A DNA stretch of 42,381 nucleotides from Solobacterium sp. (GTDB lineage: Bacteria; Bacillota_I; Bacilli_A; Erysipelotrichales; Erysipelotrichaceae), in assembly GCA_017469885.1 (NCBI GenBank), contig JAFUFO010000017.1, forward strand, positions 1 to 42,381, in the 5' to 3' direction. Below are positions 32,078 to 37,693 of this stretch, piece after piece (positions within the stretch are counted from its first letter, which is position 1; each line of letters begins with the position of its first letter). Under the pieces are notes generated by a model. That model ran no database searches. It was given only the letters and a program-made list of their open reading frames with translations, and was not told where the DNA came from. The position numbers were made by a program, and so were the translations under genes.

Positions 32078-33696
32078 TATTTACGGTAATCTAAAATTCC
32101 GTGGGGATTAGAGGAAACGGCCTCTAAAATTTCATGGGGATAAAGGAGAAGGAGAAATGTGAAAGAATCACATTGGATCCTTCTCCTTTTTGTATGTGCC
32201 GCGTGGTTTGCCGGTCCGTTTGTTGTGCCGGAAGATGTGACTGGTCAGGGAATATGAGATTTTGTGATTAAGACAATAGATAGCTCTGGCTCTGAACCGT
32301 TCAAAGTTGGATAATCCATTGGAAATCCGGATAAGTGTGCCCAGTTTGCCATTTATATTTTCGGAAAGAGCGTTTGATTGTTTGAATGTGTGGTAAGGGC
32401 GTTTGAAAGAATTCAGGATCTCAGGCCTCCAGTGCTCAAGAAGAGAGACAAAGTCTTCATAGCAGTATAAATGAGCCGTTTTGAAAGCCTGTAAGATCTG
32501 ATCAAAGCGCTGCTCACAATCGAATTCGGTGGCTTTTTTATTGAAAGTGCGATACATCTCCTTCAAGTGGTATGCGATTTTCAAGGATGGATTGAGGTTA
32601 AGTAAAGCCTCATAGAGTTGTCTGTAGTTCATTTTCTGACGGAAGAAGGAATTATATTGAGGTTTATTATCCAGATCGACATCAGATTCAAGCAGATGAT
32701 GCCAATGCTTGAGAAGATAGTATGCTGGACTGCCTTTCAGGGATTTATTCATAAGATCCACCCTGAGTCTGGTGAAGCCTTCTGAAAGATGCTTGACGAC
32801 ATGAAAAGGATCCACTGCTACTTCGCAGTTGGGAAAGTATTTAATAGAAACATCTCTGTATGGCTCCCACATATCTATCGTGACATAATGGACATTCTTT
32901 CTTTCAGACAAGGGTATCGTTTCAAGATAACGGGAAAGCGTGTACTTTGAACGATTGGGAAGTAATTCAACCAGGCAGCGGTCTTTATTATCAACGAAAG
33001 CACAAAGATAGGCGCCGCCATATTTAGCCATATCGGAATGGATCTCATCGATGCCCAGGTTTTCGGGAAGGGAGAGCCGTGGAACCTGAACAAAACTGTC
33101 GCAATACAATTCAACCAGTGTTTCAGAAATATGATGTCTGATGGCAATATCCTTAAAAGAGCTATGAATATTACAAAGCTCATCTGCGACACTGCGAAGG
33201 ACGGCGTAAGTCTGCTGGAAAGCTTCGGGGCCAAACGGATTTTCTTCAGTAAAGGTCTTACCGCAATCCTTACAGGTATAGCGTCTGCGCTTCCATATGA
33301 TGACGGATGGAATACCTGCCATCGGAAGATGATTATATGTCCGGGTGGTATAACCTTTACTCTTTGAACTGCCACCACAGAATGGGCAGGACGGATGATG
33401 ATCTTTGAGTGTGATGTGAAGCTGCAGGATTCCGTTAATCTTAAGACAGTCAAATGAAGCTATAGAGTCAGACTGTAAGTTAAGAGTGGACGTGATAAAA
33501 TCATCGATAGCCATAAAAGGCACCTCCATTTCTAAGAAGTTGGACAAAACGATCTTAGCAGGGAGGTCTTTTTCAAATAGTCCCCATGGAATTTTAGAGG
33601 GTGTCCCCAGGGAACTAAAAAAGTGAGGTCAAAATGACCCCACGAGATTTTAGAGGCTATCCCCAACCCTATAAGATTTTAGAGCGCCGTATTTAC
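32077..33696. mobile_element. ISL3-family insertion sequence with 8-bp target duplication
   Basis: GTATTTAC stands at 32077-32084 and again at 33689-33696, giving a perfect 8-bp target duplication, the size usual for ISL3. The element itself is 32085-33688 (1604 bp). Its ends (GGTAATCTAAAAT on the left; GGCGCTCTAAAAT on the right, minus strand) agree at GG and TCTAAAAT. Further TCTAAAAT...GGGGA copies lie inside both ends (about 32121; 33581-33600 and 33639-33660), the kind of repeated transposase sites seen at some IS ends. It carries one intact transposase gene. Confidence 0.9.
32168..33514 (-). CDS. ISL3 family transposase
   Basis: The 448 residues run from the ATG with GGAGG 8 bases upstream; longer starts to 33547 are less likely. 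An N-terminal zinc-finger pair (CPFCGGSS and YTCKDCGKTF, about residues 40-85) precedes an HTH-like part. The DDE catalytic domain has GIDEIHSDMAKYG with the first Asp, VTIDMWEPYRD with the second, and a Glu in the SNALSENINGKLG stretch near the end. No frameshift or stop is visible, so the element is potentially active. Confidence 0.95.
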   Translation of the reverse strand: MAIDDFITSTLNLQSDSIASFDCLKINGILQLHITLKDHHPSCPFCGGSSKSKGYTTRTYNHLPMAGIPSVIIWKRRRYTCKDCGKTFTEENPFGPEAFQQTYAVLRSVADELCNIHSSFKDIAIRHHISETLVELYCDSFVQVPRLSLPENLGIDEIHSDMAKYGGAYLCAFVDNKDRCLVELLPNRSKYTLSRYLETIPLSERKNVHYVTIDMWEPYRDVSIKYFPNCEVAVDPFHVVKHLSEGFTRLRVDLMNKSLKGSPAYYLLKHWHHLLESDVDLDNKPQYNSFFRQKMNYRQLYEALLNLNPSLKIAYHLKEMYRTFNKKATEFDCEQRFDQILQAFKTAHLYCYEDFVSLLEHWRPEILNSFKRPYHTFKQSNALSENINGKLGTLIRISNGLSNFERFRARAIYCLNHKISYSLTSHIFRHNKRTGKPRGTYKKEKDPM

Positions 33697-36312: not shown

Positions 36313-36450
36313 AAAAAAACCGCATCATCATGCGGGGACATGTTATATATGCACACACTCAGGATTCTGAGTGCGATTGGCAGTTATATATTACACGTCT
36401 GCGTGGCAGACGGGATTGCCAATATATTTACACACCTGATTGCTCAGGTG
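36313..36450 (-). ncRNA. Candidate structured RNA: four consecutive hairpins ending in a terminator
   Basis: Reading the minus strand: hairpin A, 7-bp arms at 36433-36439 and 36444-36450; hairpin B, outer arms ATTGGCA/TGCCAAT (36376-36382, 36417-36423) with an inner 7-bp stem CGTCTGC/GCAGACG (36396-36402, 36406-36412); hairpin C, CACTCAG/CTGAGTG (36356-36362, 36367-36373); hairpin D, CCGCAT/ATGCGG (36320-36325, 36330-36335) followed by seven Ts. All arms are perfect. It lies directly downstream of the tRNA-Lys remnant, so it may be the former tRNA's trailer or an RNA of its own. The plus-strand stretch 36051-36312 shows no gene I can support. Confidence 0.45.
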
Positions 36451-36465
36451 AGGCTTGCAAGAGAA

Positions 36466-36515
36466 TGGTGGTTCCTGAGGGACTCGAACCCTCGACCCAC
36501 TGATTAAGAGTCAGC
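36466..36515 (-). pseudogene. tRNA-Lys (CTT) 3' half, likely attachment site
   Basis: On the minus strand the anticodon arm (GCTGA-CTCTTAA-TCAGT, anticodon CTT), variable loop, T arm (GAGGG-TTCGAGT-CCCTC), acceptor 3' strand AGGAACC, discriminator A and encoded CCA are all present. The 5' acceptor strand and the D arm are missing. A displaced tRNA 3' part of this length is the standard trace of tyrosine-integrase insertion into a tRNA gene. The intact tRNA is not in the window. Confidence 0.8.
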
Positions 36516-36528
36516 GGTCGAGGGTTCG
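36485..36528. repeat. 13-bp inverted repeat across the tRNA remnant
   Basis: CGAACCCTCGACC (36485-36497) and GGTCGAGGGTTCG (36516-36528) are perfect inverted copies around the anticodon arm. One copy is the tRNA T arm; the other stands where the D arm should begin. Confidence 0.85.
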
Positions 36529-36562: not shown

Positions 36563-36581
36563 TGACAACTATTTGACAACT
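36563..36581. repeat. TGACAACT direct repeats near the tRNA remnant
   Basis: TGACAACT occurs at 36563-36570 and 36574-36581, one helical turn apart (11 bases). Such pairs near attachment sites can be integrase arm-type sites; this is inference. The rest of 36529-36678 is AT-rich and holds only a weak hairpin (about 36621-36653). Confidence 0.45.
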
Positions 36582-36678
36582 TTTTTCAATCAGCAACAAT
36601 CCATAGCCTGGAGTATACGAAAGGCCGGAATGAATAGACTACATTTCCGACCAACCGATTACTTATGTAATATGAGAT

Positions 36679-36972
36679 TTAGATTACGACTTCGAAAGGG
36701 AAAACGGTAACGTTTTTCGGTTCCTTTTGATATGCTTTCCAGAGTGTCAATTTCTGCTGCATATTCATCCAGCTTTCCGCAGATGTGTTAGTGGCCTTAC
36801 TGATTCTTAGAGCCATCTCAGGACTGAGAGAGGCTTTTTCATTTACAAATTCGGATAATGCTTTCCGGCTAACTCCAAGCATGTCAGCCGCCTCAGTTAC
36901 TGTTAGATGCAACGGTTTCATCACATCTTCTAAGAATACAGTTCCAGGATGTGTTGGTTTTCTTTTGATCAT
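36679..36972 (-). CDS. higA: HigA-type antitoxin (XRE family)
   Basis: The 97-residue protein has the HigA layout: HPGTVFLEDVMKPLHLTVTEAADMLGVSRKALSEFVNEKASLSPEMALRISKATNTSAESWMNMQ, a helix-turn-helix with the family's long second helix. It neutralises the toxin and represses the operon. TAGGAGG lies 9 bases before the ATG at 36972; a start at 37002 would overlap the toxin stop and add a polar lead. The order toxin-then-antitoxin is typical of higBA. Confidence 0.9.
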   Translation of the reverse strand: MIKRKPTHPGTVFLEDVMKPLHLTVTEAADMLGVSRKALSEFVNEKASLSPEMALRISKATNTSAESWMNMQQKLTLWKAYQKEPKNVTVFPFEVVI

Positions 36973-36988
36973 AATAATTGACCTCCTA

Positions 36989-37267
36989 TTAGTGATAATC
37001 AAAGTAGTCTACGAGATACGCGTCTTCATCTTCAAAGTAAAATGTCATTCTCCAATTACCGTTAACAGTAACGGACCACATATCTTTTTTGTCTCCTTTT
37101 AATGGATGGAGTCTGTATCCTGGCAGGTTCATATCCTGCGCAGATGTGCTTGCGTCAAGTCTATCAAGCATTCTAGCAAGTTTTGACGCAGGCTCAGGTT
37201 GAATGCCTTTCTTAGACCCGGTTTCATAGAAATCTTTTAGTCCTTTATGCGCAAACGACTTTATCAT
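36989..37267 (-). CDS. higB: HigB/RelE-type toxin
   Basis: The 92 residues match the HigB branch of RelE/ParE toxins: FAHKGLKDFYETGSKKGI, LDRLDASTSAQDMNLPGYRLHPLKG and WSVTVNGNWRMTFYFEDEDAYLVDYFDYH. Basic and aromatic residues near the end are those used for ribosome-dependent mRNA cutting. The gap to higA is 16 bases. The start codon lies where transcription should begin, with no ribosome site. The local base composition is AT-richer than the surrounding genes, in line with the integrated-element reading. Confidence 0.92.
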   Translation of the reverse strand: MIKSFAHKGLKDFYETGSKKGIQPEPASKLARMLDRLDASTSAQDMNLPGYRLHPLKGDKKDMWSVTVNGNWRMTFYFEDEDAYLVDYFDYH

Positions 37268-37339: not shown

Positions 37340-37693
37340 CTAGAAGGTTAATAAAACACGCATTATTTTGCGACGGGTATCCAGATCAATGGCATTGTAT
37401 ATTTCTTCCTGCCTAATCACCGGTCCTGTATGGATTGCTGCAGTTCCTAATCCAAGAGAATATAGTTTCTGATTCAAAATATCCAGAGCACTGGTTAAAT
37501 CTAAATCCTGATCGTGGAAAACGAACGAAAGTATATAGTATGGACTGTGATAGTCATACTCACCAAAATCTCCGCTTTCATTAACAAATTGCTTAATTCT
37601 TTCATAATAAAAAATGCGAGCGTCTGGCCCGCCGTTGATGGACCTGGGTCTTCCGACCAGCCCATAACTTTTTGCACTTGTAAAATGCCACAA
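37340..37693 (-). CDS. Unrecognised protein or 5'-truncated fragment
   Basis: This 117-residue frame starts with TTG and has no ribosome site. The frame stays open upstream to about 37755 without any ATG, and the extra residues (HPRIRRLNQQNDIEF-SKS) read like protein, so the real start may have been lost. The sequence (SKSLWHFTSAKSYGLVGRP, FYYERIKQFVNESG, LDLTSALDILNQKLYSLGLG) matches no family I know. It lies in the AT-rich segment behind the higBA promoter. It may be the remains of an element gene. Confidence 0.45.
   Translation of the reverse strand: MWHFTSAKSYGLVGRPRSINGGPDARIFYYERIKQFVNESGDFGEYDYHSPYYILSFVFHDQDLDLTSALDILNQKLYSLGLGTAAIHTGPVIRQEEIYNAIDLDTRRKIMRVLLTF

Follow-up and report, generated by a model that had tools for sequence, protein, structure and literature searches.

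Tandem-hairpin arrays of Solobacterium: a new RNA family with a possible role in sugar-dependent titration

The small RNAs CsrB and CsrC, as well as RsmX, RsmY and RsmZ, act in trans, contain many hairpins together with a repeated short motif, and are subject to nutritional control. In CsrB and the Rsm RNAs this motif is GGA, which is exposed in hairpin loops or in other single-stranded regions and binds CsrA (PMC7652899). CrcZ and CrcY of Pseudomonas carry repeated A-rich single-stranded motifs, and their transcription follows carbon status (PMC12533007). In CrcZ, which is CbrB-driven, it is the motif AAnAAnAA that holds Hfq/Crc. Tandem repeats of about 36 nt, situated between a promoter and a terminator, are also found in ToxI, the antitoxin RNA of type III toxin-antitoxin systems (PMC5086642).

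A stretch of 42,381 nucleotides from Solobacterium sp., referred to as the window, contains a hairpin array from a family of bacterial RNAs that had not been listed before. In the family, 2 to about 10 short perfect hairpins are joined by a near-constant linker of ~18 nt with the consensus GYGAWAUAYAAnnnCAAA, and the hairpin sequences are variable. With the Csr and Rsm RNAs the arrays share many hairpins and a repeated short motif and, by inference, action in trans and nutritional control. However, their constant motif lies in the linkers, GGA is present in just 4 of 151 loops, and CsrA (PF02599) was found in none of 20 array-bearing genomes, controls being positive. As in CrcZ and CrcY, the repeated motifs are A-rich and single-stranded and transcription seems to be tied to carbon status, although the latter is only inferred for the array. 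In contrast to CrcZ, the repeated element is the linker consensus and the control element a cre-like operator; AAnAAnAA occurs in 11 linkers only and is not a general array feature, and a search for Hfq (PF17209) in 60 genomes gave no match, again with positive controls. With its constant linkers, variable hairpins and variable copy number, this covariance-supported family is added to a group of gut bacteria for which few small RNAs have been described.

The window array and its relatives

On the minus strand, positions 36465 to 36313 (153 nt) comprise three hairpins of 7 bp and an intrinsic terminator. Hairpin 1 (36450-36433; CACCTGA/TCAGGTG with a 4-nt loop) corresponds to covarying helix 1 of alignment A7, described below. 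Hairpin 2 (36412-36396; CGTCTGC/GCAGACG, 3-nt loop) has undergone a GC-to-AU compensatory change in the related genome G001, and hairpin 3 (36373-36356; CACTCAG/CTGAGTG, 4-nt loop) GC-to-UA changes in G021 and G001. Linker 1 (36432-36413; UGUAAAUAUAUUGGCAAUCC) fits the family pattern, having an AUAUA core and CAA near its end; linker 2 occupies 36395-36374 and linker 3 36355-36336. The terminator (36335-36313) has a 6-bp stem, CCGCAT/ATGCGG, at 36335-36320, directly followed by seven T's at 36319-36313, and is kept as the last hairpin of arrays.

A previous sequence-only reading of this region had claimed four perfect stems of 6-7 bp and a T7 terminator at the end of the array, and had considered a chance origin unlikely. 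There are indeed exactly four such stems on the minus strand, all of them perfectly Watson-Crick paired, the fourth being the terminator hairpin. Dinucleotide shuffling of the 153-nt stretch, repeated 5,000 times, never gave four such stems and gave three only once. When 153-nt segments of the contig were scanned on both strands with a step of 20, only 2 reached four stems. The predicted fold is 4.3 SD more stable than that of shuffles.

The same reading had proposed a new structured RNA, with an Infernal search and compensatory changes in homologues as the checks. Covariance model R1, built solely from six tRNA-linked copies, recovers free-standing arrays without a nearby tRNA among 70 genomes of the genus, with E-values from 5e-6 to 2e-12 (G032, G021, G009, G109, G010, G004 and G040). 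It also recovers, at E 5e-19, the copy of G022, which had been left out of the six-row alignment A4 and has compensatory changes of its own. The proposal is therefore supported by homologues far from any tRNA as well as by covariation. After two rounds of rebuilding (R2 and R3), model R3 finds arrays in 33 of the 70 genomes, which are Solobacterium sp. and ruminant-gut MAGs; one of these arrays (G030) is weak. Three array-bearing relatives come from reindeer, roe deer or sheep. Outside the genus, recognisable but diverged arrays were detected in only two genomes, belonging to one other genus of the family (G264 and G272), and in 395 genomes sampled evenly from the class nothing outside the genus was matched at E 0.001. 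Since searches over more than 40 genomes were run under stricter filters, absences are not proof. About half of the genus is without a detected array, hence the RNA is not essential. Contigs were seen to stop within or near arrays at L065 and L091 (G016), L071, L092 and L094 (G031) and L085 (G025); assembly of short reads probably breaks down at repeat-rich arrays, whose number is hence underestimated. Several further matches were discarded: those in G249 (weak, outside the genus), G003, G017 and G024:C9 look like chance or tRNA matches on inspection, and L107, the sole viral-contig match to a two-unit pattern, was judged to be due to chance since the hairpin units are missing.

No described family accounts for the arrays, in agreement with the sequence-only reading, which had not recognised one. 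Rfam 15 gives no array match at the gathering score or, under relaxed thresholds, at E<=1. The only sub-threshold matches are to tRNA, on the tRNA remnant next to the window array, and to Hrs13 in the array of G013 (22 bits vs 52). A search of plasmid records with array DNA gave no match, and in phage records the tRNA part alone was matched, not the array. No such RNA was found to be described for this bacterial family in the literature covered, from which most subscription journals are absent.

The family and its structure could be established computationally. Among 151 hairpin-linker units, the stem has a mean length of about 7 bp and the linker measures 18 nt in 87; linker positions 6, 7, 8 and 10 are each conserved at 98%. 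The 5' strands of the stems exist in 104 distinct sequences among 163 units (counted before tRNA arms were removed), with pairing being kept. GNRA is present in 34 of the 80 four-base loops, against 6.7 expected, an enrichment that points to RNA. In alignment A7, which contains 26 arrays, both-sided changes are seen in all 27 pairs, 96.5% of the cells are paired, and the covariation score amounts to 0.945, vs 0.219 for shuffled and at most 0.116 for slid controls. This alignment was fitted by a covariance model to the structure and mixes paralogous units, and its pair counts are therefore inflated. The independent six-row MAFFT alignment A4 contains three both-sided changes with 99.4% pairing; a MAFFT alignment of two-unit modules lost the register of the stems and was replaced by the model-fitted alignments. 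The predicted probability of being unpaired is 0.04 for stems and 0.65 for linkers, and the mean fold z-score is -6.0. A CRISPR-like array was rejected on the repeat pattern alone, the constant part being formed by the linkers and not by the hairpins. Protein coding was equally rejected: in most arrays every sense frame is interrupted by stop codons, although a few have one frame without any.

Linkage to tRNA-Lys(CTT) and a mobile element

Where an integrative element has entered the 3' end of a tRNA gene, its usual layout is a repaired, complete tRNA on one side and, on the far side, the 3' remnant that was displaced. The array of the window is preceded on the minus strand by such a remnant (36514-36466), which extends from the anticodon stem to CCA and has the same sequence as the 3' half of tRNA-Lys(CTT) on contig C49 of the same genome (G000), where this tRNA is intact. 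This agrees with the tRNA remnant that had been claimed from sequence alone. The 5' half is absent, and ARAGORN calls no tRNA at this position. A stretch of 251 bases of the window matches C49:6750-6974 with 93% identity. On C49, the same array comes after the intact tRNA, and beyond it are genes for a tyrosine integrase, a Mob_Pre relaxase and a resolvase; Pfam confirms that Phage_integrase and Mob_Pre adjoin the tRNA. The two arrays differ at 1 stem position (54 columns) and at 13 non-stem positions (100 columns). With a tyrosine integrase beside the restored tRNA and a 3' remnant in the window, the criterion for a tRNA-site integrative element is met. That contigs C18 and C49 carry the two ends of one element is inferred across a contig gap. 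In its tyrosine integrase, tRNA-Lys attachment site, restored tRNA and displaced remnant, the element is like other tRNA-integrating elements; unlike those that restore the 3' end only, it also carries a structured trailer array. The mobile element appears to preserve the structured trailer as well as the tRNA.

The copy in the window is derived, being a trailer of tRNA-Lys(CTT) that an integrative element has displaced. In its original setting, such an array would be the 3' trailer of tRNA-Lys(CTT) and ride on the tRNA transcript. The element would insert into the tRNA gene while bringing a tRNA 3' half and an array of its own, so that both are restored, and the displaced remnant with its array would be left as the copy now in the window. 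About 85 nt past the terminator are common to this copy and to the intact-tRNA copies of G000, G009 and G021, for which reason it may descend from an earlier element; the same sequence is absent from the copies of G022 and G001.

Other features of such a site are found nearby. An inverted repeat at 36485-36528, consisting of CGAACCCTCGACC and GGTCGAGGGTTCG with perfect arms at 36485-36497 and 36516-36528, surrounds the anticodon-loop core and is the probable core of the attachment site. The tandem motif TGACAACTATT/TGACAACTTTT on the plus strand (36563-36584) is found again at the opposite element end (L002, 1330-1356), and these are probable arm-type sites of the integrase; in both cases the role is inferred. 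Further upstream of the array, on the minus strand, are an HTH antitoxin-like gene (36679-37002; 107 aa, Pfam HTH_3) and a 92-aa ORF (36989-37267), likely a HigB/HigA pair, with the identity of HigB being inferred. No minus-strand terminator-like site exists between the antitoxin-like gene and the array, and read-through from the pair into the array is a plausible inference. No promoter was found just upstream of the window array. As this promoter is missing and that of the tRNA has been lost, the copy may be silent.

Two minor observations concern the same part of the window. At 37618-37664 (minus strand), a DUF3800-XI RNA is recognised by Rfam (50.6 bits, gathering 37.8); it overlaps the start of a 117-aa ORF (37340-37693, minus strand) on the integrated element, possibly a truncated DUF3800 gene. 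A 459-aa ORF at 32168-33547 (minus strand) resembles an ISL3-type transposase, by eye only.

Among related genomes (n=100), four additional species (G001, G009, G021 and G022) have a full array downstream of tRNA-Lys, and most other listed members of the genus have a plain terminator after tRNA-Lys(CTT). For the tRNA-linked array of G022, no integrase gene was seen in the surrounding 20 kb, and the array is therefore not dependent on an element. The right-end remnant in G021 is followed by a shorter array of one hairpin and the terminator. In G001:C77 (L035, 6211-9960), a 3.4-kb segment lies between an intact tRNA-Lys with array and a second tRNA 3' remnant with array; it contains an HTH-like and an ABC-transporter-like gene, no integrase was seen, and it is probably a decayed or dependent element. 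At another tRNA, tRNA-Asn(GTT) in G030:C44 (L115, 3660-3810), the gene is followed by a single hairpin of 10 bp, the linker GTGATATATAG and a terminator with a T run (E 0.03, weak), a possible second, independent fusion of the RNA family to a tRNA.

Promoters and a cre-like operator

Most free-standing arrays possess their own promoter, of the sigma-70 type, and their own intrinsic terminator. A -35/-10 pair is located upstream of the first detected hairpin in 27 of 30 such arrays, and in 21 of these 27 promoters a cre-like palindrome resembling TGTAAGCGCTTACA, the cre site of CcpA, is present upstream of the -35 box (P<=0.05 per locus). The scoring matrix for this operator was written after some sites had been viewed, so that the per-locus P-values are optimistic; the phasing test is unaffected. 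Operator centres are found near -55, -65, -76 or -86, so that they share a helical face (R=0.95 for a period of 10.5 bp). The same value, R=0.95, is obtained with 17 deduplicated loci from which close relatives were removed, against maxima of 0.75 with uniform placement (3,000 trials) and of 0.58 with shuffled upstream regions (300). Furthermore, when the orthologous loci of G021 and G009 are compared, an indel of 11 bp, or one helical turn, separates them in the stretch from the operator to the -35 box, and the phase is thereby kept. The sequence-only reading, which had noted four hairpins, understates the region: the usual form of the family is a promoter-driven, operator-controlled small-RNA gene of as many as about ten hairpins, from which the tRNA-linked state is derived.

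In B. subtilis, a cre-site position upstream of -35 is associated with activation, and the effect depends on the helix face (PMC3463425). Because the phased geometry of the arrays matches this CcpA-dependent activation, expression under sugar-rich conditions is inferred. As far as can be predicted from the DNA, the RNA is probably switched on by a regulator of the CcpA/LacI family in the presence of preferred sugars; the identity of the regulator is itself an inference. CcpA-like LacI proteins are encoded in 30 out of 30 genomes searched, all of them below the NCBIfam ccpA cut-off, and for this reason the owner of the operator could be another LacI-family regulator. The phased sites predict a response to sugar supply in rumen and gut.

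In a table of the neighbours of 37 arrays, there is no same-strand gene that consistently follows the terminator. This, together with the many and unrelated neighbourhoods, suggests that the RNA acts in trans.

Possible mode of action

We are inclined, by a narrow preponderance of likelihood, to regard the window array as a derived representative of a new family of small RNAs that are made of tandem hairpins, act in trans and function as sugar-activated, multi-site titrating RNAs. Each linker, held open between rigid hairpins, would represent one binding site, and the multi-copy RNA, once activated by a CcpA/LacI-family regulator in the presence of preferred sugars, would titrate an RNA-binding protein or a partner RNA in proportion to sugar supply. 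This would be analogous to the pairs CsrB-CsrA or CrcZ-Hfq/Crc, with the partner of the array as yet unidentified. Although inferred, a multi-site titrating RNA fits best with the repeated open linker, the rigid and interchangeable hairpins and the variable copy number. The most likely mode of action is thus of a known type, while the RNA family itself is new. More tentatively, and as something possible rather than probable, it could be imagined that the arrays form a new RNA class of one Erysipelotrichaceae branch, in which information resides in the linkers, expression obeys a carbon-catabolite switch, the scaffold titrates an undiscovered global regulator other than Hfq or CsrA, and one array has been adopted into the attachment site of an element. 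For bacteria whose searched genomes yielded neither Hfq nor CsrA, the arrays provide a handle on post-transcriptional control, and the linker-binding partner may act as a global regulator.

The main rival to a titrating RNA is base-pairing through the linker, which appears rather unlikely but cannot be set aside lightly. The array would then be a base-pairing small RNA, or a precursor cut into many hairpin RNAs, of which the A/U-rich linker pairs with mRNAs or small RNAs and the hairpins protect and space the seeds. A linker that is largely single-stranded and highly conserved would suit this role, and the occurrence of free arrays in many unrelated neighbourhoods, which makes action in trans likely, is equally compatible with it; moreover, the searches for Hfq and CsrA provided no pointer to a protein sponge. 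Yet the most conserved part, AWAUAYAA, consists almost only of A and U, from which weak pairing is expected, and the many near-identical copies per RNA suggest stoichiometric titration, not one regulatory seed. A type III antitoxin RNA, intact or decayed to a remnant, is the least credible of the alternatives and hardly tenable, in spite of a repeat of ~36-40 nt (a 7-bp hairpin plus an 18-nt linker) and a succession of promoter, tandem repeats and terminator as in ToxI. No consistent same-strand toxin gene follows the terminator, the neighbours being mostly convergent (for example a 2-hydroxyacid dehydrogenase), the hairpins differ in sequence between units of one array, and there is no matching Rfam family even at E<=1.

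Two other explanations take the link with the tRNA and the element as their starting point. Both copies in this genome are behind tRNA-Lys sequence, and other members of the genus have plain terminators at the same place; the array might therefore be merely a 3' trailer or terminator module that shapes the processing or termination of tRNA-Lys and has no role of its own. This seems improbable, since most arrays of the genus have no tRNA and are equipped with their own promoter, and since a single hairpin ends tRNA-Lys in other species, which makes three extra hairpins unneeded. At the level of the family, it is largely refuted by the free-standing arrays. Both copies also flank ends of the element, which carries one of them, and the repeats could thus act as DNA, as attachment-site or recombination sequences such as arm sites or cruciforms. 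Very little speaks for such a role in the light of the G022 array without a visible integrase gene, of the promoter, terminator and strand asymmetry of the free arrays, and of the enriched GNRA loops; furthermore, the probable arm-type sites have a different motif, TTGACAACT.

Fourteen free-standing arrays are arranged tail-to-tail with a D-2-hydroxyacid dehydrogenase-like gene (L117, 5734-6672, and loci in G010, G013, G024, G043, G047, G052, G057, G104, G105, G002, G048, G014 and G020), and six of these have a PAP2-family-like gene upstream. One representative of each, dehydrogenase-like and PAP2-family-like, was confirmed by Pfam. The ancestral locus may lie in this conserved neighbourhood. 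In many free arrays (for example L097, L099 and L062), the stretch from +1 to the first hairpin contains a purine-rich 5' leader resembling GCUGAAAACAAC.
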